NCBI GenBank assembly: GCA_031279475.1
Contig: JAITIL010000071.1
Coordinates: 1 to 33,261, forward strand
Length of the DNA: 33,261 bases
Direction: 5' to 3'
Source of the DNA: Prevotellaceae bacterium
GTDB lineage: Bacteria > Bacteroidota > Bacteroidia > Bacteroidales > UBA932
Part shown: one piece after another, positions 10,764 through 32,329 of the stretch
How the letters are laid out: each line of letters begins with the position of its first letter
Position numbering within the stretch: the first letter of the stretch is position 1
Translations under genes and position numbers: made by a program
Notes under the pieces: generated by a model
What the model was told of the DNA's origin: nothing
Seen by the model: only the letters and a program-made list of their open reading frames with translations
Database searches by the model: none

Positions 10764-10919
10764 GCGTTTTTTTTATAAACAGGCAAATTTCCGCATATAA
10801 AGATTTAAACCTTCAAATCATGAAACCTTACAGGCATTCCCCATGTTATTCTACAATAAGTTTTTTCATTATTCCTGCAATTTTTATGTGTTAAAATAGA
10901 TATAAAAGGCCCGGTAGCC

Positions 10920-11107
10920 TTTGCGGCACGTACCGCAAGTGTGGTTGAGGGCCCGGTGGCATTTGCGGCACGTACCGCAAGTGTGGTTGAGGGCTCGGTG
11001 GCGTTTGCGGCACGTACCGCAAGTGTGTTTGAGGGCTCGGTGGCATTTGCGGCACGTACCGCAAGTATCGTTGAGGGCTCGGTGACATTTGCGGCACGTA
11101 CCGCAAG
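10920..11107. repeat. Five 42-bp-spaced copies of a 20-bp palindromic repeat
   Basis: The core TTTGCGGCACGTACCGCAAG starts at 10920, 10962, 11004, 11046 and 11088, exactly 42 bases apart. Within it TTGCGG and CCGCAA pair around CACGTA, leaving a near-perfect 18-base palindrome. The 22-base pieces between are themselves near-identical (TGAGGGC then a CGGTGGCA-like end), so this is one 42-bp tandem unit rather than a CRISPR. Since 42 is a multiple of 3, several frames stay open and give artefact peptides of 14-residue repeats. The array ends 19 bases before a hicB-like fragment. No function is assigned. Confidence 0.9.
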
Positions 11108-11125
11108 GGGAGCTACACGCGAACA

Positions 11126-11299
11126 ACAGACAGTTATTATCGTTTCCAGCGATATGGGAAATTGTGGAAGGATGGCACAAGCCTTGCCGAACTTAAGGAA
11201 AATATTGTTGATGTGCTGGAAATGTATTTCGAAGACCTCCGTGAAGCCTATCAGCCCTGCGGCGAAATGATAGAGGAAGAGGAATTGGTTTTTGCATGA
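11126..11299 (+). pseudogene. HicB-type antitoxin remnant (C-terminal part)
   Basis: This frame reads KDGTSLAELKENIVDVLEMY then FEDLREAY and an acidic tail ending in ELVFA. It fits the helix of HicB antitoxins that follows the (G)xSLEEAxxNIxEAxxLYxE pattern. The N-terminal beta-sheet part is absent and is replaced by the 42-bp repeat array. The stop codon overlaps a following ATG (ATGA), the arrangement of hicB-hicA pairs. The assignment is from pattern only. Confidence 0.45.
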
Positions 11300-11334
11300 A
11301 AAGAACACAATTCATACAATACCTGAACAGCCAG
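11296..11334 (+). pseudogene. HicA-type toxin remnant (first codons)
   Basis: MKRTQFIQYLN resembles the start of HicA toxins (MKRxxFIxYLxxxGC). It begins in an ATGA overlap with the hicB-like fragment. After about 12 residues similarity stops, and the Gly-His catalytic region (GGNHSI) is not found in any frame nearby. Confidence 0.4.
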
Positions 11335-19819: not shown

Positions 19820-22800
19820 ATGATGCAAAATTTTTTTAGAAAAAACAAAATGTCAATCAATGAAAAACGGAAAACGGAAAACAGGCGAATGGATTGTACG
19901 GTCGCACGAATACCGGCTATGTGCAGCCGCACGGCCATGCGGCTCTATCTGCTACTGGTAACATGTTTCCCGGCTATGCTGTCGGCGCAAAACGGTGTGA
20001 TGGTGTCGGGGCTTGATGTGAATGCAGGGACGGTGACGTTTAAGGTGAGTTGGGCCAGGAACAGCCCCGGTATGCCGTCGGTGTGGAGCGATTCGGTGTG
20101 GGTGTTTGTGGATTACAATAACGCGGCAGGCGCGATGAAGCGGTTGCCATTGATGTTGAACGCGGGCGCTACCTTGACCGAGACTTCGGCGCCGGGCGTG
20201 GGGAAACTGGTGGAAGTGCCCGGGAACAATCAGGGCATGTGGGTGATTGGTAATGCAAAGAGTGCCAGTTCCGGCAGTTTTTCGGCGACGGTGAAACTGT
20301 TCACGGCTGCTACTGTTACCGGGGCGTGCGCCTATGCCTCGAATTACCCGCCAACGGGGGAATATATTGACTCCGGTTCCATCATTCATTTTACGGGGAC
20401 GCCGCCATATGACCTTGTGTTGAAGCACACCAACGGGACTACGAAATCCTGGATATCGGCCGGTAATTATTTTGTGCAGCCGGATTATACGTTACAATCG
20501 TTTATTGACAAAACCGGTATGCCGGGGACTTTAAAATGTGCGCCGATGACCGGGAATATTAATTTTGAATGTATGCCGTCTTCCGTACCTAAGGGCCGAC
20601 CGGCGACGTTTACGGTGAATCTTGTTCCTACAGTGCCTCAGACTTCGAAGATAACGTACAGTTGGTCGGCGCCGGAGTTTACGCCGGCCACATATTCTGG
20701 AGCGACATTTACTACTACTGCGCCTAATACGTTTGGTGCATACGAAGTAACGTTGACGGCATACAGTAGGGGTTTTTGTGATTTGACACGGAAGAACGGT
20801 GTGACGGTGCTGGAATGCACTACCCCTAAGGTATTCACCTTAACGGCGTCGGCGCCGAGTTTCTGTGACGGTGGCGCCGGGGTTACATTTGCATTGTCGG
20901 ATACGGAGAGTGGGGTGAAGTATCAATTATACAAGGACGGCGTGTCTATCGGTACTGAGTTATCCGGCGGCGGAAGTGCGGCTACATTCAGTGGTGCGTT
21001 TAACGTAGCTGGCCTTTATACGGCGCGTTCGGTGCAGGGGGGGAAGTATTGTGAGGTTGCGATGACCGGGTCGCATGGCATTACATCGAATCTGGCGCCG
21101 CAGGCGCCGCAAATTTCCGCCAATGATGTGTGTTTGAATAGCGGGAATTTGGTGTTTACGGCGTCGGGTTATTCCGGGGCGGTGGAGTGGCTGTCGGACG
21201 GTGGCGGCGTAGTAAACGGCAATACGGTGACCTTTGCGGGTACACTCATCGGGACAAAGACGGTGACTGCCCGTTCGGCGCAAACCTATGCCAATGCGCC
21301 AACGTGTTACAGTGTGGAGGCGACCCAATCGGCAACGGTGAATCCGTTGCCCACGGTAAGTTCGACGGCCGGCGCTTCGCGTTGCGGCGCGGGTACGGTG
21401 ACGCTCACGGCCACGCCTTCGGATGGTGCGGTGATGGACTGGCACAGCGCATCCAGTGGCGACGCGTTGTTGTTGAGTTCGAACAATAATTATATTACGC
21501 CAACTATAAATACGAGTACGACGTATTATGCGCAGGCGCGCATTCAGGCCACCGGCTGTGTGTCGGCTTCGCGGACGGCGGTGTTGGCAACGGTGCAAAC
21601 TGCCCCTGCAGCGCCTAACGGATTAACTGCCGATAAAACCACGATATGTAGTGGAGAGGCCACGACTGTAACTTTAACGGCCACCGGCGGCGACACAGGT
21701 TCCGGGGCGGTGTATGAGTGGGGCACGGGTGCGATAGGCAGTAATCTGCTTTCACCCTCGACTACCACTGCCAACACCTGTTTGGTGAATCCGAGCGATG
21801 CAGTTACCTACTGGGTACGATTAAAGGGTACGACGTCCTGTTCGGCCACTACCGGCGGGGCGACAACGTCTATCGGGACATATGGTACGATTGACGCAGG
21901 TGTGATAACTACAGCTTCGAAGACGACCTGGATAGGAATGGATGCCAACATAGTGGTGGAAAATTCTTCAATGGCTTCTGGTGCCAATGGGTCCTTTACA
22001 TACTTGTGGCTTCGTACCGGAACGGGGGGGGCTTCTACCTTGACCGCTAATGATGCAGTTACCGGCATCATAAATTCCGATGATTATGCTACTGCCGGCA
22101 CCTACTATTTTAACCGTTATGCGAAAGACGCAGTTTGTAGCATGGCGGCGTGGATAGCTGCAACGGGTACTTATACGTTAGTGGTAAGGGAGGGCGTTAA
22201 CCAGCAGCAGGGCGGTTGTACGTTTACGCCACCACCGGTGGCGGGTACGTTTGCGAGTTTCAACAAGAATTACAGCGCTTCTACGTATGTGACCCTGGCC
22301 GATGAGCGGGACGGTAATAATTATACGGTGGTGAAAATCGCCGACCGGTGGATTATGGCGCAGAACTTGAATTACCAAAAGGATTTGACGTTGCAGGAGA
22401 ATTCTAAGGCGCCGACCACAAAATCCGGAGGCAAAATACTGGAGTTAATCGGGCATTTCTGGTGTCCGGGCGGGTACAGTGCGACGTCGACTACTTCCAC
22501 CAGGGCAAGTTGTGATGTGTGGGGCGCGCTGTATTCGTGGGAAACGGCGATGATGGTGGATGGGAAATGGACGTCTGATGCACACAATAGTAGTACATGG
22601 GTTGAGCCAACTTCGTATGGTACCAGCTCAAGTTCGGGTAATACGCAAAATCATGCCCGCTCGGGTGACGGCGCCACTTCCGGTGGTCGCGGTATTTGTC
22701 CGCCGAATTGGCATGTGCCGACCGATAAGGAATGGGGTGATATCTTAAATGCTATGGAATCCGGTGCGGGTACAACGCATAACACCGGTACGGGTGAAAG

Positions 22801-23143
22801 GGGTACGGATGCCGGAACACGTGGTAAGTCAAAGTGCAAAATTGCGAATAACAGTACATCTGGAAATGCGTATGTGAACGATGCTAATGCAAATTGGTAT
22901 TATTATAGCTCTCGTTCGGGAACTGATGTTTATGGGTTCCGGGTGCTGCCGGCGGGCTACCGCGCCAACAATGGCTCCAACTTCTCCTATAGAGGCAGAC
23001 GCGCCTACTTTTGGCATTCGACTGCCTATAATAATTTGAATGCGGGGTTCAGATACTTCAGCCATGACCGCGCCACCGTGAACCGCAACGCCAACTTCAA
23101 TCGTTCTTATGCGCTCTCTGTCCGTTGTATCAGGGATTTGTAG
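19820..23143 (+). CDS. Secreted multi-domain protein with C-terminal FISUMP domain
   Basis: 1107 residues from the ATG at 19820; GTG 19796 and later ATGs (19823, 19850) are alternatives. A long polar N-region is followed by a signal peptide hydrophobic core (LYLLLVTCFPAMLSAQ). Then come several beta-sandwich modules of about 80-100 residues, some Ig/PKD-like with paired cysteines, with a Thr/Ser/Gly/Ala-rich composition. The last about 270 residues are a Fibrobacter-succinogenes-major-paralogue (FISUMP) domain: DERDGNNYTVVKIADRWIMA, the GHFWCPGGYSA region, RGICPPNWHVPTDKEWGDI and GFRVLPAGYR, ending in SVRCIRDL. No sorting signal follows FISUMP. It is likely at the cell surface; binding function unknown. 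AAAACGG is tandemly repeated in the signal-peptide region (19864-19884). Confidence 0.85.
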   Translation: MMQNFFRKNKMSINEKRKTENRRMDCTVARIPAMCSRTAMRLYLLLVTCFPAMLSAQNGVMVSGLDVNAGTVTFKVSWARNSPGMPSVWSDSVWVFVDYNNAAGAMKRLPLMLNAGATLTETSAPGVGKLVEVPGNNQGMWVIGNAKSASSGSFSATVKLFTAATVTGACAYASNYPPTGEYIDSGSIIHFTGTPPYDLVLKHTNGTTKSWISAGNYFVQPDYTLQSFIDKTGMPGTLKCAPMTGNINFECMPSSVPKGRPATFTVNLVPTVPQTSKITYSWSAPEFTPATYSGATFTTTAPNTFGAYEVTLTAYSRGFCDLTRKNGVTVLECTTPKVFTLTASAPSFCDGGAGVTFALSDTESGVKYQLYKDGVSIGTELSGGGSAATFSGAFNVAGLYTARSVQGGKYCEVAMTGSHGITSNLAPQAPQISANDVCLNSGNLVFTASGYSGAVEWLSDGGGVVNGNTVTFAGTLIGTKTVTARSAQTYANAPTCYSVEATQSATVNPLPTVSSTAGASRCGAGTVTLTATPSDGAVMDWHSASSGDALLLSSNNNYITPTINTSTTYYAQARIQATGCVSASRTAVLATVQTAPAAPNGLTADKTTICSGEATTVTLTATGGDTGSGAVYEWGTGAIGSNLLSPSTTTANTCLVNPSDAVTYWVRLKGTTSCSATTGGATTSIGTYGTIDAGVITTASKTTWIGMDANIVVENSSMASGANGSFTYLWLRTGTGGASTLTANDAVTGIINSDDYATAGTYYFNRYAKDAVCSMAAWIAATGTYTLVVREGVNQQQGGCTFTPPPVAGTFASFNKNYSASTYVTLADERDGNNYTVVKIADRWIMAQNLNYQKDLTLQENSKAPTTKSGGKILELIGHFWCPGGYSATSTTSTRASCDVWGALYSWETAMMVDGKWTSDAHNSSTWVEPTSYGTSSSSGNTQNHARSGDGATSGGRGICPPNWHVPTDKEWGDILNAMESGAGTTHNTGTGERGTDAGTRGKSKCKIANNSTSGNAYVNDANANWYYYSSRSGTDVYGFRVLPAGYRANNGSNFSYRGRRAYFWHSTAYNNLNAGFRYFSHDRATVNRNANFNRSYALSVRCIRDL

Positions 23144-23277
23144 TCCGTTTGGCAAAATAATTATGAATGTAATCAGTCTAATATCGAACATCTATGGAAC
23201 ACAATAAATAAACTGGATTGTAAAAATTTCGTAAGTTTCTTAAAAAGGGCGGTGGCTTGCCCGGAGTACTAACGTGG

Positions 23278-23306
23278 CGCGGGGTCTTTTGGCCCCGCGT
23301 TTTTTA
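23278..23306 (+). terminator. Intrinsic terminator after the FISUMP gene
   Basis: CGCGGGG (23278-23284) pairs with CCCCGCG (23293-23299), loop TCTTTTGG, followed by TTTTTT. It is oriented for the plus strand only. Confidence 0.88.
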
Positions 23307-23477
23307 TAAACAGACGATAGCAGGGTGCGTTCCAAGAGCTATGCTTCCTTGGTTTTGTAAATTTGCACCGTTAACTTCATCAAGGTATGCGGGCTTGTGA
23401 GGAGGCGGCTCATCATCGCAAAGGCCAAACCTTCTTTTTGTAGCGCAGTCTTGGCGTTTTGAGTCGAAGAAATTCAT
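23304..23477 (-). pseudogene. Truncated partner gene after the first ABC-type ATPase
   Basis: A 57-codon frame starts at the ATG (23477-23475) that overlaps the ATPase stop as ATGA. It begins MNFFDSKRQD, continues RRFGLCDDEPPPHKPAYLDE, then loses any conserved look and stops at 23304. The overlap and the KxFGLCDDExxxxKPAYxDE-like start resemble a small protein family that I recall downstream of such ATPases, where the intact protein is much longer. The end falls at the FISUMP terminator, so the rest is probably deleted. The family recollection is uncertain. Confidence 0.5.
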
Positions 23478-24694
23478 ACTGCGGGCTTTTTTTGAATTTC
23501 CAATAACTTTGCGAATAGTTCATTACTTTCTTCCAACTCTTTATTCAATGCGTTTTCATCGGAAGGTAATTCGTTTAATGTCTCGAGGGCGTGAATGGAG
23601 CCGGTTATTTCGTCGAGTTCATAAACCGACAAATCGGCCGGGTTAACAATTGATTTTAGCGAAATAATTTTCCCCAATTCTTTTTCCTGGGTAGCTGTTA
23701 CTATCGGCGCTAACTGTCCGGCCTTAACCAGTAGCGTAAGATAGCTAATCAGGTAAGGGCTATGCGTTGTTATTACCAGCTTATTGCCCGGCGTTCCGTT
23801 ATTAAATTCCAGCAAACTTTGAAGCATCATCCATTGCGAAGACGGAAACAGGTTTTGCTCAGGCTCTTCGACGATATTCACAAACGCGGTCTTGTTGAAC
23901 TTCGACGACAGGGCCGACAGGGCAAGCCGCTTTTGCTCGTCGGTGAGGCTGGGATTATCCCAGATTTTTTTCGCATCTTCTTTAAAGCGGCTTCGCTCTT
24001 CCGCACTCATGGCTTCTTTGTTGTCACTATGCGTTTTCACCGAATCCGCCAAATATTTTGAAACCAGGTATTGCGGCACGAATGATTGAAATCCGCTTGA
24101 CGCTTCGGTAAGCTCAATTTTGTAACCATCGCCTTTCAGATAGAGGTTGTCGTGTTGTTTGCTGTATTCGACGTCGGTATTGCCGATAGGTAGCCTGGCT
24201 GTTGCCTTCAGGTCATTTTTTGCATGGATATATTCCGTATTAAACTCCTGTAAAGCTTCGGACGACAACTTCAACTCTTTGGCTCCTTTAATATAAGTCA
24301 AAAAGTTCCTTTCGGCCGGAACATACATGATTTGAGGCAAAGGATACGTCCCCCCCGTTTCAGAGATTGACATTGCCCCATCCCTGTATTTTATGGAGTA
24401 AACATCTCCCTGATATTCGATGCCGGTGTCGGGCTGGAGATAGTTCTCTAAACGGTGATAGGGTAAAAATTGATTTTTAAACCTGTTTTTCTTCTCAAAC
24501 CATTCTTTATCGTAATCGCCTCTGAATAATGCTTTTTCCATCCACGTGAAAGCCGAAACCAGTTTAGCAACCGTACTTTTCCCTGAGCCTTGGTTGCCGA
24601 CAAATACCGTAACTTTCCGTATATCGAGCCAGCCATTTTTTTCAGAAAATCCTTCTTTAACAGGGCCGAAACATCTAATTTTTATTTTACTCAT
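23474..24694 (-). CDS. AAA/ABC-type ATPase (OLD/RecF-like, no TOPRIM domain), first copy
   Basis: 406 residues from the ATG at 24694; an ATG at 24757 lies upstream of the -7 element and is rejected. Walker A is VFVGNQGSGKST (K39), the ABC-signature-like piece is EASSGFQSF, Walker B is VNIVEEPEQNLFP, and the switch His is VITTHSPYL. A charged helical insert (about 230-285) sits between the two halves. The C-terminal end has DLSVYELDEITGSI. The fold is that of SMC-like ATPases found in defence and repair modules (PARIS AriA, Septu PtuA, OLD), but no nuclease domain is fused. The stop overlaps a second, truncated gene. It resembles the gene at 30452-31591 in motif order and ends. Confidence 0.85.
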   Translation of the reverse strand: MSKIKIRCFGPVKEGFSEKNGWLDIRKVTVFVGNQGSGKSTVAKLVSAFTWMEKALFRGDYDKEWFEKKNRFKNQFLPYHRLENYLQPDTGIEYQGDVYSIKYRDGAMSISETGGTYPLPQIMYVPAERNFLTYIKGAKELKLSSEALQEFNTEYIHAKNDLKATARLPIGNTDVEYSKQHDNLYLKGDGYKIELTEASSGFQSFVPQYLVSKYLADSVKTHSDNKEAMSAEERSRFKEDAKKIWDNPSLTDEQKRLALSALSSKFNKTAFVNIVEEPEQNLFPSSQWMMLQSLLEFNNGTPGNKLVITTHSPYLISYLTLLVKAGQLAPIVTATQEKELGKIISLKSIVNPADLSVYELDEITGSIHALETLNELPSDENALNKELEESNELFAKLLEIQKKPAV

Positions 24695-24726
24695 TTTGTT
24701 TAATTTAAATAAAATTATACCCACAG

Positions 24727-24734
24727 CAAAGGTA
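24727..24734 (-). promoter_or_regulatory. -7 promoter element of the first ATPase gene
   Basis: TACCTTTG on the minus strand, 32 bases before the ATG at 24694. It supports the shorter start. Confidence 0.6.
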
Positions 24735-24816
24735 CAGAGTAATTCTTTAATTAACAAATCACAGATGATGCGCGAAAAACGGTAATTAAATTAACGCGTC
24801 AGTAAAGATTAAAAAT

Positions 24817-27800: not shown

Positions 27801-28821
27801 GGGGCGGATAATAATTGACTCCGCCGAAGTAGGTGCCAATCCAGAGCCCGCCCTCGCGGTCTTTATACAAGCTGTAAACCGCGTTGTCGGAAAGCGAATA
27901 AGGGTCGAAAGGTTCGTGGCAAAAATGCTGTATGCTATGGCTCTGCGTATGGTAAATGTAAATGCCCGATTCGGTGCCGATGCACAGTTCGTTGTCGGAT
28001 TTCCGGATAATGTCCCGGACAAAAAGGTGGTCGTAGCTTTCCGGCTCCAGCAGCGGTTGGATTTGTTTGTTCAGCAGATTTAACTTCTTCACGCCCCCGT
28101 TGGCCGTTCCGATAAGCAAATTATTGTAGTTATCCTGAAAGAGCCGGTAGATGTCGCCCTTGACTTCGTTTCCGTTAGTCAGCGGGACAGCTTCGAACCG
28201 GTCGTTTTTCCGGTCATACCGGTTCAGGCCTCCGCCATGGGTGCCTGTCCACACGTTGTTTTCGCGGTCGATGCAGATACTCCACGCATTGACAATGGTG
28301 TTCACTTTGTAGAAAATCAAGGATGGGCGATTGTCCGCCCCTGCGCCCTGGGGTTTATACAGGAATATGCCCTGCCAATCAACGGCAAACCAAATATTCC
28401 CGTCCTTATCCGCCTTGATGTCATTCACCTCTTTCTCAATGCCGGTTCCGTTTGCGGTCTGCAAATCGAAGCGGGTAAAACTTTCCGTATCCGGATGGTA
28501 GATATAGACGCCCATATCCGTTCCCACCCAAATGTCCCCGTTTTCTCCCTGGAAAAGGCTCCGGATAAAGTTATTGCCGATGCTGTTTTTGTTTGCCTTG
28601 TCGTGCCTGAAATTCCGGAACGTATATCCGTCATAGCGGCTCAGCCCGTCTTTTGTTCCAAACCACATGAAGCCCTGCCTGTCCTGCAAAATGCAGGAGA
28701 CCGTATTTTGCGGCAACCCGTCTTCCACGCCGAAATGCCGGAAGTAGTAGCCTGGCTCGCCTTGCATGGACAATGGCAAGGATGCCGCGAGCAACAAGAG
28801 GTATGTGCGTAGTGTGTTCAT
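24817..28821 (-). CDS. Hybrid two-component system sensor/regulator (HTCS)
   Basis: 1334 residues. Signal peptide (1-20); two-component propeller repeats over about 25-690 (repeated WFGTKDGLSRYD, IWVGTDMG, LWIGTYFGG, LWFTSNNGLS blades); Y_Y_Y domain (about 700-775); one membrane helix (AYSAYTLLLLLFLVWFFLSY). Then a histidine kinase with IAHEIRTPLSL (phospho-acceptor H845), N-box NLFTNAIKYA and G-box SGAGLGLPLARSLAELHKG. The receiver has SDIIMPEMDG (D1137) and the T and K residues (LLTAK, EKPFS). An AraC-type helix-turn-helix ends it. The complete phosphorelay senses a periplasmic ligand, usually a glycan, and acts directly on DNA. No susC/susD or glycan enzymes are in the window. It starts 3 bases after the AAA_14 gene. 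Confidence 0.96.
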   Translation of the reverse strand: MNTLRTYLLLLAASLPLSMQGEPGYYFRHFGVEDGLPQNTVSCILQDRQGFMWFGTKDGLSRYDGYTFRNFRHDKANKNSIGNNFIRSLFQGENGDIWVGTDMGVYIYHPDTESFTRFDLQTANGTGIEKEVNDIKADKDGNIWFAVDWQGIFLYKPQGAGADNRPSLIFYKVNTIVNAWSICIDRENNVWTGTHGGGLNRYDRKNDRFEAVPLTNGNEVKGDIYRLFQDNYNNLLIGTANGGVKKLNLLNKQIQPLLEPESYDHLFVRDIIRKSDNELCIGTESGIYIYHTQSHSIQHFCHEPFDPYSLSDNAVYSLYKDREGGLWIGTYFGGVNYYPPQYTPFERFYPQNRQNTIRGKRIREFQQDRYGGLWIGTEDGGLNYYNPRTGAFRNFMPDGTHKSISYLNIHGLLVDGDKLWIGTFTHGLDVLDIKTQKVIRHYKKTEDPHSLCDNSVFAICKDDVGNLWLGTIYGLSRYNPQQDNFTKIKYMGDTFIYDIFQSYDGLLWFASFNQGLFRYNPRNEEWKVFKHDPENEKSLPHDKIISIYEDSKKNLWVTSEGGGFCKYNPDDESFISYTTKDGLPNDVVYKMLEDDNGKLWFTSNNGLSCFNPDNGAIKTYTLAEGLLGNQFNYKSGYKTPEGKLYWGCLNGFIAFDPLGFTENDYIPPVVITGFRLFNKETKDDTQGFPTKQPFHLTNEIHLKYNQTSFSIDFAALSYMAPGKNKYACMLEGFEKEWTHLTGHNSVTYSNISPGDYVFRLKGSNSDGKWNETPVNLAIYIHPPFYKTVWAYSAYTLLLLLFLVWFFLSYHKRLKRREKRKLEIFENEKDKELYNAKIAFFTNIAHEIRTPLSLIKGPVEYILTHEIEAEEMTENLKVIEKNTNRLLNLSNQLLDFRKVEAKGFQLNYMHSDVKQLVEEVYVRFELTARQKNLDFELQLPAEKLFADIDREAFTKMVSNLFTNAIKYAQNTIVAALESAGENQFRLKVSNDGYLIPEEMKEKIFEPFFQIGDEDGNSIKSGAGLGLPLARSLAELHKGKLYLEILPGQPNIFILQLPLAQDSAITVVEEAPEPETEMAAGEEIPFKTKPTVLIVEDNQEMRHFLYNRLKPLYKVIKAQNGKIALECLRKENVDIIVSDIIMPEMDGLQLCAEVKANVNHSHIPVILLTAKADIKSHIEGLDAGADAYVEKPFSMEHLLAQLSNIFTNRNKVKQAFINSPTQKAGSIALTKADEIFLEKVTRIIDKNLSDVDFNVDSLAGELHMSRSSLHRKIKGISELTPNDFIQLVRLKKAAELLQEGSCRINEICFLVGFGSSSYFSKRFKKQFGASPKEIKK

Positions 28822-28822
28822 T
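28725..28822. repeat. 98-bp direct repeat, copy inside the intact HTCS gene
   Basis: Covers the first 97 bases of the HTCS gene plus one base upstream. The second copy is at 30277-30374 in the same orientation. There are 7 differences, all transitions, and no gaps. Similarity ends one base before the ATG. Confidence 0.9.
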
Positions 28823-28824
28823 TT

Positions 28825-30156
28825 TTATTTTAGCGCCTGACTGATGGCATATAAAGGGATAACTTTGATAGCGTTATATTGCGAAAAATTTTCGAGCGAA
28901 GTACGAATACCATACGTCACATTTTTTTCTTTCAGAAACAGATACAAACTCTGCATGGCGCCGGTTATGCCCGATTTTACCTCAATGGGAATGATTTCCC
29001 TGTTTTTTTGAATGATGTAATCTACCTCGGCAAGACTGCCCGGCTTGTCGCGTTGCCAATAATATAGACCTTGCTGTGTGTAGCAGGAGCTTGCCTTTAA
29101 CAGTTCCAAGCCGACAAAAAGCTCGGCGATGTTCCCTTTGTTTACGAAGTTAAAATCGCTGCCCAACAATATGTCCGATAATTGTAAACCTTGTAACCGT
29201 TGTAAAATTCCGGTATCAAGCAGCAACATTTTTTGTTTTTTATAATTGAGTTGGGCGCCCAATGGGATGCCCGTAGCTGCTGTGTGTACAACCGGAATAA
29301 CCAAACCTGCCATTTTAAGGGTTTCCAAAGCTTGCTTCAGCTGATAATGCGAATATTCCTGCCCTGATTTTGAGAACATAAACTTTTTACCGACTTGCTC
29401 GCTGACCATATCGAAAACCGTGGAAACTTGCAATGGCAGAATGCGCTGTTTATATTTGGCAAAATCGGTGCGTAGCGAAATAATTAAATCGTCGAGTACG
29501 CGCTGGCATTGGCGTAAATCTTTTTTCGAGGCATAGGTGGCCACTACTTCGGGCATACCGCCCACAATCAAAAACTCCCTCAAATGTTCAAGCGCTTTTC
29601 GATGAATGGCTTCAGGAAGCGGATTTTCGACATTTCCCTCCCCAATGGCTTCTAACAGCAGGGCATGTCCGCACGCACTCAAAAACTCCGCAAAAGAGAA
29701 CGGGTACATAAACAACGACCGGATGCGCCCCACGCCAAACGACGGCAGGACTTCCAACGCAAATTCCAGCAGCGAGCCGGCTGCAATCACATGCAATTCG
29801 GGGTAATCTTCGTAGAAAAAGCGCAACGAAGAAATGGCGGGAAGACAAGATTGAATTTCATCGAAAAAAAGTAAGGTCTTACCCGGAATAACAGGAGTAT
29901 CATAGATAGCAGAGAGCTGATTGCAAATCCGCTGTGGAGATAAATTCCCCTCGGAGAACACTTTGCTTGCCTTTTCGTCTTTCTCAAAATTTATTTCCAG
30001 GAAGTGAGGAAATAATTTAGCCAAGTGCCGCACCGACGATGATTTCCCCACTTGTCGCGCTCCGCGCAATAACAAAGGCTTATGTTGGACTTCTTTCGAC
30101 CATGCCTCCAACTCTCTGTCAATCTCTCTTTTAATATATCCTATTTCTATTTTCAT
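28825..30156 (-). CDS. ATP-binding protein with AAA_14 and DUF4143 domains
   Basis: 443 residues. Walker A is LLLRGARQVGKSS (28-40) and Walker B is TLLFFDEIQS (D99, E100). Then come the AAA_14 sensor segment AAGSLLEFAL and MYPFSFAEFL, and a DUF4143 C-terminal half (about 210-430) with LLDTGILQRLQGL. Near the end, GSLAEVDYIIQKNREIIPIEVKSG has the spacing of a PD-(D/E)XK nuclease-like core. Such proteins are widespread in Bacteroidota, often in many copies; their role is not established. It starts 30 bases after a TATTTTTG element and is followed 3 bases later by the HTCS gene, so the two share a transcript. Confidence 0.9.
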   Translation of the reverse strand: MKIEIGYIKREIDRELEAWSKEVQHKPLLLRGARQVGKSSSVRHLAKLFPHFLEINFEKDEKASKVFSEGNLSPQRICNQLSAIYDTPVIPGKTLLFFDEIQSCLPAISSLRFFYEDYPELHVIAAGSLLEFALEVLPSFGVGRIRSLFMYPFSFAEFLSACGHALLLEAIGEGNVENPLPEAIHRKALEHLREFLIVGGMPEVVATYASKKDLRQCQRVLDDLIISLRTDFAKYKQRILPLQVSTVFDMVSEQVGKKFMFSKSGQEYSHYQLKQALETLKMAGLVIPVVHTAATGIPLGAQLNYKKQKMLLLDTGILQRLQGLQLSDILLGSDFNFVNKGNIAELFVGLELLKASSCYTQQGLYYWQRDKPGSLAEVDYIIQKNREIIPIEVKSGITGAMQSLYLFLKEKNVTYGIRTSLENFSQYNAIKVIPLYAISQALK

Positions 30157-30276: not shown

Positions 30277-30374
30277 CCACGCCGAAGCGCCGGAAATAGT
30301 AGTTTGGTTCGCCTTGCATGGACAATGGCAAGGACGCCGCGAGCAACAAGAGGTATGTGCGTAGTGTGTTCATT
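30277..30374 (-). pseudogene. Truncated second copy of the HTCS start
   Basis: The ATG at 30373 begins MNTLRTYLLLLAASLPLSMQ and continues GEPNYYFRRFGV, about 31 codons, then runs into unrelated AT-rich sequence and a stop. It encodes the signal peptide and first propeller residues of an HTCS-like protein. The differences from the intact gene include Gly to Asn and His to Arg changes, so it may be the remnant of a separate paralogue rather than a fresh duplicate. Confidence 0.85.
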
Positions 30375-30416: not shown

Positions 30417-30455
30417 TCAAAATTGAATTTGCCGTAACAGATTTTTCATTGTCAT
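30417..30455 (-). pseudogene. Truncated partner gene after the second ABC-type ATPase
   Basis: An ATG (30455-30453) overlaps the ATPase stop as ATGA and gives MTMKNLLRQIQF, then a stop. Its length rules out a functional protein. It ends about 40 bases before the truncated HTCS copy, which suggests one deletion joined the two. The family cannot be recognised. Confidence 0.4.
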
Positions 30456-31591
30456 AACTGATTATATTCTTCGTAAATGTCGTTAATTGTTTCAGAAAGA
30501 GGATTTGTATTTATCAATTTTTTGTTTGCGATTTTCAAATCAAAAATTTCCCCTTCATCCACTTGGTAAACAGACACGTCGTCATAATTTAGTTGTGCGC
30601 CTTCCACTAATTTGTTTTTATCACGGGCTTTAATCAGCAAGTTTAAATGATTAATGATATACGGACTGTGTGTAGCCATCATAACAGTCATATTGTAGTC
30701 TTTATGATTTTCCACAAAGCAACGGTTTACAATAAAATTTATCAAACTGCGCTGACTTTCGGGAAATAAACTCAATTCCGGCTCTTCAATGTGGATATGC
30801 ACATTCCGGTGTTTGATATCCCCGATATTTTGCACTGCCCGGAAATCTTTTAAACTGTCGTTCCGGGAGAGATAATCCAACACAATATTGTTAAAACGGC
30901 TATTGAAATCATAGTGTCGTGCAAAATGCTCCACAATGACCGACAGTGGAATTAGTGTTTGTGTGCCAGAAGAAGCGTTATATAGATTTATAGAATACGG
31001 CTCGTCATTCCCTATATTTTCAACAAGATACCTTGGAATGACCCCCTCCTTTTTAACCACAAACTTAATGCCTAAATAAGCTATATGTAATGGCTGGGCT
31101 ATTTGATTTAGCGCTAACAAAATATCGTTTAATGTTTCCTGTAAATAAAAATCGGTTTGCAGGTTCATTTTATTGGCGAGTATATCAGGTATGATATTTC
31201 TTCTATCTGCCACAAAGCACATTTTTTCTAAACTTAACTCGTCTTTGGGCACTAAATCAGAAGTAACCAACTTATCCTTCTTGTAATGAACAGTAGCGCT
31301 TCCCTTTTTATAAATGATTTCGGTATTGTCTTTTAAATATTCCAATAATCCGTTTTTCTTTAACAATTCCTTAAACTCAAATTCAACCAGTGATTTTGAG
31401 ATATTCGAATGTTTCAAATAGGAGCGAATATTAACCCATTTATAAATCCATCGAAAAAGTATGATTACCTTCATAATCGCGCTTTTCCCGCTGCCCGATT
31501 CGCCAATAAACACGGTAAATGGGCGTATGTCTTCAATTTCTATGTGCTTAACAGGACCGAAATTCTTTATGATTATTGCTTCTTGCATCAT
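30452..31591 (-). CDS. AAA/ABC-type ATPase (OLD/RecF-like, no TOPRIM domain), second copy
   Basis: 379 residues from the first of two tandem ATGs at 31591; an ATG at 31615 lies before the likely transcription start. Walker A is VFIGESGSGKSA (K36), the signature-like piece is NASSGTQTLIP, Walker B is VHIHIEEPELSLFP, and the switch His is MMATHSPYIINHL. The C-terminal segment is DVSVYQVDEGEIFDL. Both the N-terminal GPVK and the C-terminal YxVDE region match the gene at 23474-24694, so the two are distant paralogues. No TOPRIM or nuclease domain is fused. It is lower in GC than its neighbours (many AAA, ATT and TTT codons), consistent with transfer. The stop overlaps a truncated second gene. Confidence 0.85.
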   Translation of the reverse strand: MMQEAIIIKNFGPVKHIEIEDIRPFTVFIGESGSGKSAIMKVIILFRWIYKWVNIRSYLKHSNISKSLVEFEFKELLKKNGLLEYLKDNTEIIYKKGSATVHYKKDKLVTSDLVPKDELSLEKMCFVADRRNIIPDILANKMNLQTDFYLQETLNDILLALNQIAQPLHIAYLGIKFVVKKEGVIPRYLVENIGNDEPYSINLYNASSGTQTLIPLSVIVEHFARHYDFNSRFNNIVLDYLSRNDSLKDFRAVQNIGDIKHRNVHIHIEEPELSLFPESQRSLINFIVNRCFVENHKDYNMTVMMATHSPYIINHLNLLIKARDKNKLVEGAQLNYDDVSVYQVDEGEIFDLKIANKKLINTNPLSETINDIYEEYNQL

Positions 31592-32065: not shown

Positions 32066-32329
32066 ATGAAGCTACCGGTTAACACACCAAAAAACGGGTG
32101 CATCAGCGCCGAAAATTCGCCTGGATATACCGCGAATTCGCGCGAATTTATGGCAAATTCGCCTGAATATGGCGCGTGTTCGCCTGGATTTATGACAAAT
32201 TCGCTTGAATACGGCGCGCGTTCGCCTGAATTTTACAGGAATTCGCCTGGATATACCGCGAATTCGCGCGAATTTATGGCAAATTCGCCATGTCTAATTT
32301 GTGTAATCCGTCTCAATTCGTATAATTAA
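32066..32329 (+). CDS. Small heptapeptide-repeat ORF
   Basis: 87 residues. After a short unique start (MKLPVNTPKNGCISAE) come nine heptapeptides of the form [NRC]-S-[PRL]-x-[YF]-x-x (NSPGYTA, NSREFMA, NSPEYGA, CSPGFMT, NSLEYGA, RSPEFYR and so on), then a short tail. AGGA lies 7 bases before the ATG and a -7 element farther upstream. There is no signal peptide or membrane helix. Whether it is translated is unclear; it could equally be a 21-bp DNA repeat that happens to be open. It ends 29 bases before the next gene. Function unknown. Confidence 0.45.
   Translation: MKLPVNTPKNGCISAENSPGYTANSREFMANSPEYGACSPGFMTNSLEYGARSPEFYRNSPGYTANSREFMANSPCLICVIRLNSYN
32114..32289. repeat. 21-bp-period repeat block with a 50-bp exact duplication
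   Basis: 32114-32163 and 32240-32289 are identical over 50 bases and lie 126 bases (six 21-bp units) apart. Units centre on AATTCGCC or AATTCGCG. The palindrome CGCGAATTCGCG occurs in each of the two long copies (32131-32142 and 32257-32268). Confidence 0.88.

Follow-up and report, generated by a model that had tools for sequence, protein, structure and literature searches.

A truncated PDC-M29 locus in a Prevotellaceae bacterium retains an intact ABC-type ATPase gene and the 5′ end of its putative nuclease gene

The window, by which we mean the whole 33,261-nucleotide stretch of Prevotellaceae bacterium DNA that was analysed, carries on its minus strand an ABC-type ATPase gene that starts with ATG at 24694 and ends with TGA at 23476–23474 (Table 1). 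The stop codon shares the sequence ATGA with a second start codon (23477–23475), which opens a frame of 57 codons, MNFFDSKRQDCATKRRFGLCDDEPPPHKPAYLDEVNGANLQNQGSIALGTHPAIVCL, and the stop codon of this second frame (23304–23306) is located inside the T-run of the terminator of a convergent FISUMP gene. An earlier note on this DNA had given the coordinates, the ATGA overlap, the length of the frame and its stop at the FISUMP terminator exactly, and had read the frame as what is left of a lost effector gene.

Table 1. Features of the window at and around the PDC-M29 locus
Feature	Position	Strand	Description
Fib_succ_major (FISUMP) domain	22331..23143	plus	C-terminal region, convergent neighbour gene; PF09603, E 5e-24
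FISUMP 3′ module	23235..23310	plus	GC-rich hairpin and T-run
Tail of the 57-codon frame	23304..23360	minus	non-homologous, 18 codons and stop
PDC-M29B remnant	23361..23477	minus	start codon in the ATGA overlap and first 39 partner codons
PDC-M29A ATPase	23474..24694	minus	406 aa, intact; PDC-M29A profile match
Upstream region	24695..24816	minus	short gap between the hybrid two-component gene and the ATPase gene

The ATPase matched the PDC-M29A profile of PADLOC over almost its entire length (E 1e-175; residues 1–403 of 406, profile positions 1–409 of 410), and it has a Walker A motif (GNQGSGKS, residues 33–40), a signature motif (EASSGFQS), a Walker B motif (VNIVEEPEQNLFP) and an H-loop (TTHSPY). 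The only class assigned to it by Pfam and NCBIfam was AAA_15/AAA_21, and the description "SMC-like" in the earlier note is therefore loose, while that of an ABC-type ATPase stands. In a leave-one-out comparison, none of the 42 family-conserved positions was altered, and this lack of decay implies either that the loss of the nuclease described below was recent or that the ATPase still has some role. Based on this profile match, the ATPase is assigned to the PDC-M29 system; the locus as a whole is classified as a broken, truncated member of it, since most of B is missing (see below). In a congener (G398), a tRNA-like sequence, recognized as a tRNA by eye, takes the place of the ATPase gene after the same two-component gene (90% DNA identity), and the ATPase locus is therefore accessory.

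The second frame begins with the partner gene of the same candidate system. The PDC-M29B model of PADLOC matched residues 1–38 of the 57-codon frame (profile positions 3–38 of 164, E 2e-7), which bears out the idea of a lost effector, and our own B profile, in which the window fragment itself is one of the 18 sequences, matched it with an E-value of 2e-11. The remnant shares 28 of its 39 residues (72% identity) with the N-terminal end of the open-frame partner encoded in the related locus L033, and searches of the fragment and of B in Pfam, NCBIfam and PDB sequences returned nothing useful. The position of the frame, directly downstream of the ATPase gene on the same strand with an ATGA overlap, is also that of B in PDC-M29; the rest of B, including the D..ExK region, is gone from the window. 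Judging from these matches, the 57-codon frame is not a chance open reading frame and starts with a true fragment of PDC-M29B. The dN values to L033 are alike for the ATPase (0.226) and the B fragment (0.20), as a recent truncation of B would predict, and dS is saturated between the window ATPase and its relatives.

The homology to B does not decay gradually, as had been proposed, and instead breaks off sharply at residue 39 (around 23361). The remaining part of the frame is made up of approximately 50 bp of unplaced origin, with no match elsewhere in the assembly, and the T-run of the terminator. It is conceivable that the frame encodes a functional short peptide, such as an inhibitor or a regulatory N-terminus, given that it opens within the native overlap and shows conservation over its first 39 residues. 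However, the last 18 residues have no match and run into the terminator of the opposite gene, and a B of such length occurs in no other locus; we dropped a working short protein on the latter ground and consider it highly improbable.

To see how the two genes occur elsewhere, PDC-M29A loci were collected from 395 Bacteroidia genomes, 60 relatives and 393 same-order genomes, in addition to plasmids, phages and genome contigs. A B frame was present directly downstream and on the same strand in 30 of the 33 assessable loci outside the window, with an overlap of 4 or 10 nt in most paired loci; a shredded ATPase fragment (L050) was left out of the 33. The homologues of the ATPase are thus not solitary as a rule, and homologues of the 57-residue frame are found in their neighbourhoods in exactly the position that this frame occupies, both of which agree with the earlier note. 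The three unpaired loci differ from each other. In L034, from a Chitinispirillales MAG, the ATPase gene is frameshifted and B is absent; in G441, approximately the first dozen codons of B are joined to its C-terminal part, the catalytic core being deleted; and in Microcystis phage Mic1 an intact ATPase gene has no B. More distant ATPases, some of them on viral contigs and plasmids, are likewise paired with B-like partners; no close relatives turned up on viral contigs when these were scanned with close A or B queries.

The intact partner in other loci is a small protein of approximately 165 residues that bears the signature of a PD-(D/E)xK nuclease. Hardly any variation is seen among 44 B sequences in the pattern D...C..D/E(n)ExK...Q: D is present in 43, D or E in 44, E in 44, K in 43 and Q in 41 of them. 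When B was compared by hhalign with HSDR_N_2 and NERD/YraN-type domains, both of which belong to the PD-(D/E)xK superfamily, the D..ExK core was aligned, and the scores (26.9 and 27.8, respectively) exceeded those of all 100 column permutations made for each comparison (maxima of 18.6 and 12.1, respectively). AlphaFold2 predictions for two B homologues, made from alignments of few sequences, had pLDDT values of 35.5 and 48.2, too low for the models to be used, and the assignment of B as a putative nuclease is accordingly one of sequence signature and not of fold.

The source genome is a MAG of 172 contigs that is 85% complete, and an assembly artefact has to be weighed, in which a FISUMP 3′ end was wrongly joined to the contig of an organism whose PDC-M29B is intact. 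The number of contigs is in favour of such a misjoin, and so is the recurrence of FISUMP 3′ modules in the genome: similar modules are present on contigs C17 and C168 and in a congener, following FISUMP genes on C168 as in the window. Nevertheless, the copies of the module near the breakpoint are just 72–78% alike, and no 18-mer of 23281–23400 was found elsewhere in the sequence searched. Exact repeats of at least 18 bases across the join were likewise absent from the sequence searched, which argues against a simple misassembly. A 26-bp near-exact repeat after the FISUMP gene (23201–23226), with approximately 14 further copies genome-wide that are not just beside FISUMP genes, is situated well before the breakpoint. 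In addition, the two nearest relatives of the locus have independently broken partners. A chimeric join at the breakpoint keeps a small residual probability, and we regard an artefact of assembly as improbable.

The closest described counterpart of the locus is PDC-M29 itself, a PADLOC-DB candidate composed of genes A and B, with which the window shares the full-length ATPase family, the gene order and the overlap; unlike B of PDC-M29, that of the window is cut after 39 of approximately 165 residues and cannot act. PARIS likewise consists of two genes, for an ATPase (AriA) and a small effector nuclease (AriB, with a Toprim domain), and AriB is sequestered by AriA and released upon a phage trigger (PMC12409363). 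The AriA model matched the window ATPase only distantly (E 8e-15, against 1e-175 for M29A), and M29B has the PD-(D/E)xK signature and no Pfam Toprim match, unlike AriB. The locus was not assigned to PARIS, as AriA is not its best match and B lacks Toprim. Septu and retron-Septu also pair an ATPase (PtuA) with a nuclease (PtuB, an HNH nuclease). Retron PtuA is, weakly, the nearest solved structure to the window ATPase by sequence, but the NCBIfam PtuA model gave 28.2 bits against a cut-off of 500, and none of the M29B members matched the PtuB model, matching PDC-M29B instead. With PtuA below its cut-off and PtuB without a match, Septu, which is listed as a 6:2 PtuA–PtuB complex degrading the genome of the phage (PMC12948488), was set aside as well. 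The PADLOC-DB candidates HEC-02, PDC-M56 and PDC-M47 have a similar two-gene layout by name, and weak B-to-B matches were obtained for some distant members; these are too weak to merge the families, and PDC-M29 is a far better fit for the genes of the window.

A defence role of the candidate PDC-M29 system is supported by its neighbourhood. Among 90 proteins encoded around ten PDC-M29 loci, 132 PADLOC families were matched at E ≤ 1e-20, as opposed to 3 among 90 control proteins encoded elsewhere, for the most part in the same Bacteroidia genomes; many related models match one protein, so that the count of 132 overstates the number of genes and the enrichment is one in kind. The neighbours include type I restriction-modification, a DpdF homologue and other candidate defence genes. 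This enrichment, along with the analogy to known systems, backs the proposal of the earlier note that the pair was probably defensive. The description of the pair as undescribed or poorly described was fair: PDC-M29 is a database candidate for which no naming paper, and no test of any member for defence, was found in the literature searched.

From the intact PDC-M29A, the frame that is the 5′ end of PDC-M29B and the nuclease signature of B elsewhere, we infer a working mode for the pair. In a working system, the ATPase would assemble with the nuclease and restrain it. Upon sensing infection, the ATPase would activate or release the nuclease, which would then cut nucleic acid and halt either the phage or the cell, in the manner of PARIS and Septu. 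At the present locus, a PDC-M29 operon would once have stood beside the two-component gene, and its second gene would have been truncated later, when recombination or deletion removed the nuclease core (all beyond codon 39) and joined codon 39 to DNA beside the FISUMP terminator. As the core is gone, the window copy could sense at most and not execute. Taken as a whole, this explanation, namely a PDC-M29 operon with an infection-sensing ATPase that controls a toxic nuclease and with B truncated here, is in our judgement very likely. It turns the bare label PDC-M29 into a testable two-part system of an ABC-type ATPase and a PD-(D/E)xK-type nuclease, and it illustrates that the scar of a lost effector can be spotted from raw sequence.

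What goes beyond the earlier reading, apart from the nuclease signature of the partner, is a cluster of ATPases that lack a working nuclease. In the tree, the ATPases of the window, L033 and L034 form one clade (98/98), L033 and L034 being the two nearest relatives of the window. B is broken in all three loci and differently in each: truncated in the window, mutated in L033 and absent from L034. The closest partner with an open frame is that of L033 (7323–7814); its catalytic Lys is replaced by Thr (ELT instead of ELK), a Ser is inserted between the C and the D of the CD motif, and the protein is probably a dead nuclease. Given 5 broken loci among 34, the chance of finding three of three broken is 0.0017, a post-hoc figure for three loci. 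The pattern of the clade is compatible both with decay that begins with the effector, a costly nuclease, and with an ATPase that is retained in its own right.

Retention would mean that selection keeps a nuclease-less ATPase, as a decoy, a regulator or an antitoxin-like protein, in a PDC-M29 sublineage, and it is compatible with the explanation given above. Besides the three different lesions, the solitary, full-length and expressed PDC-M29A of phage Mic1 and a second, equally partnerless M29A-like ATPase of the window speak for it. However, the clade offers three cases only, examined after they had been seen; the ATPase gene of L034 is itself frameshifted, the B frame of L033 is full length, and the same pattern would be produced without any selection on A if the toxic effector gene is simply the first to be lost. 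We thus regard retention under selection as unlikely. Rather doubtful is its extended form, in which a PDC-M29 ATPase sublineage, that of the window included, persists nuclease-less under selection, the Mic1 version stands alone, and such proteins may bind triggers or poison competing intact complexes (decoy or anti-defence). The solitary ATPases of one clade and a cyanophage pose the question of whether the ATPase has any role without the nuclease.

The Mic1 protein is gp13 (L055:4001–5239; MN013189, 16586–17824), which matches PDC-M29A over its full length (E 2e-187) and has no B next to it. It is annotated as an "ATP-binding protein", and an adenine methylase gene adjoins it on the opposite strand. 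Mic1 gp13 is reported to be expressed together with late genes, in the late L2 expression cluster (PMC11237433).

The second PDC-M29A-related ATPase of the window (30452–31588, minus strand; E 3e-40) has no partner, being followed by a frame of only 10 codons (MKNLLRQIQF). In the one good homologue found for it (L079, 45% identity), the ATPase gene shares an ATGA overlap with a partner-like gene for 226 aa, and the second window ATPase may, by this comparison, have lost its effector too. Elsewhere in the window, a 98-nt direct repeat with 93% identity (28725–28822 and 30277–30374), which corresponds to the 5′ end of the two-component gene, brackets an AAA_14/DUF4143 gene (28825–30156), as if the latter had entered at the start codon and the accompanying duplication had kept the reading frame of the target gene whole. 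Open frames composed of short amino-acid repeats are present at 10805–11308 (LAVRAANATEPS-like) and 32066–32329 (NSPEYGARSPEF-like).
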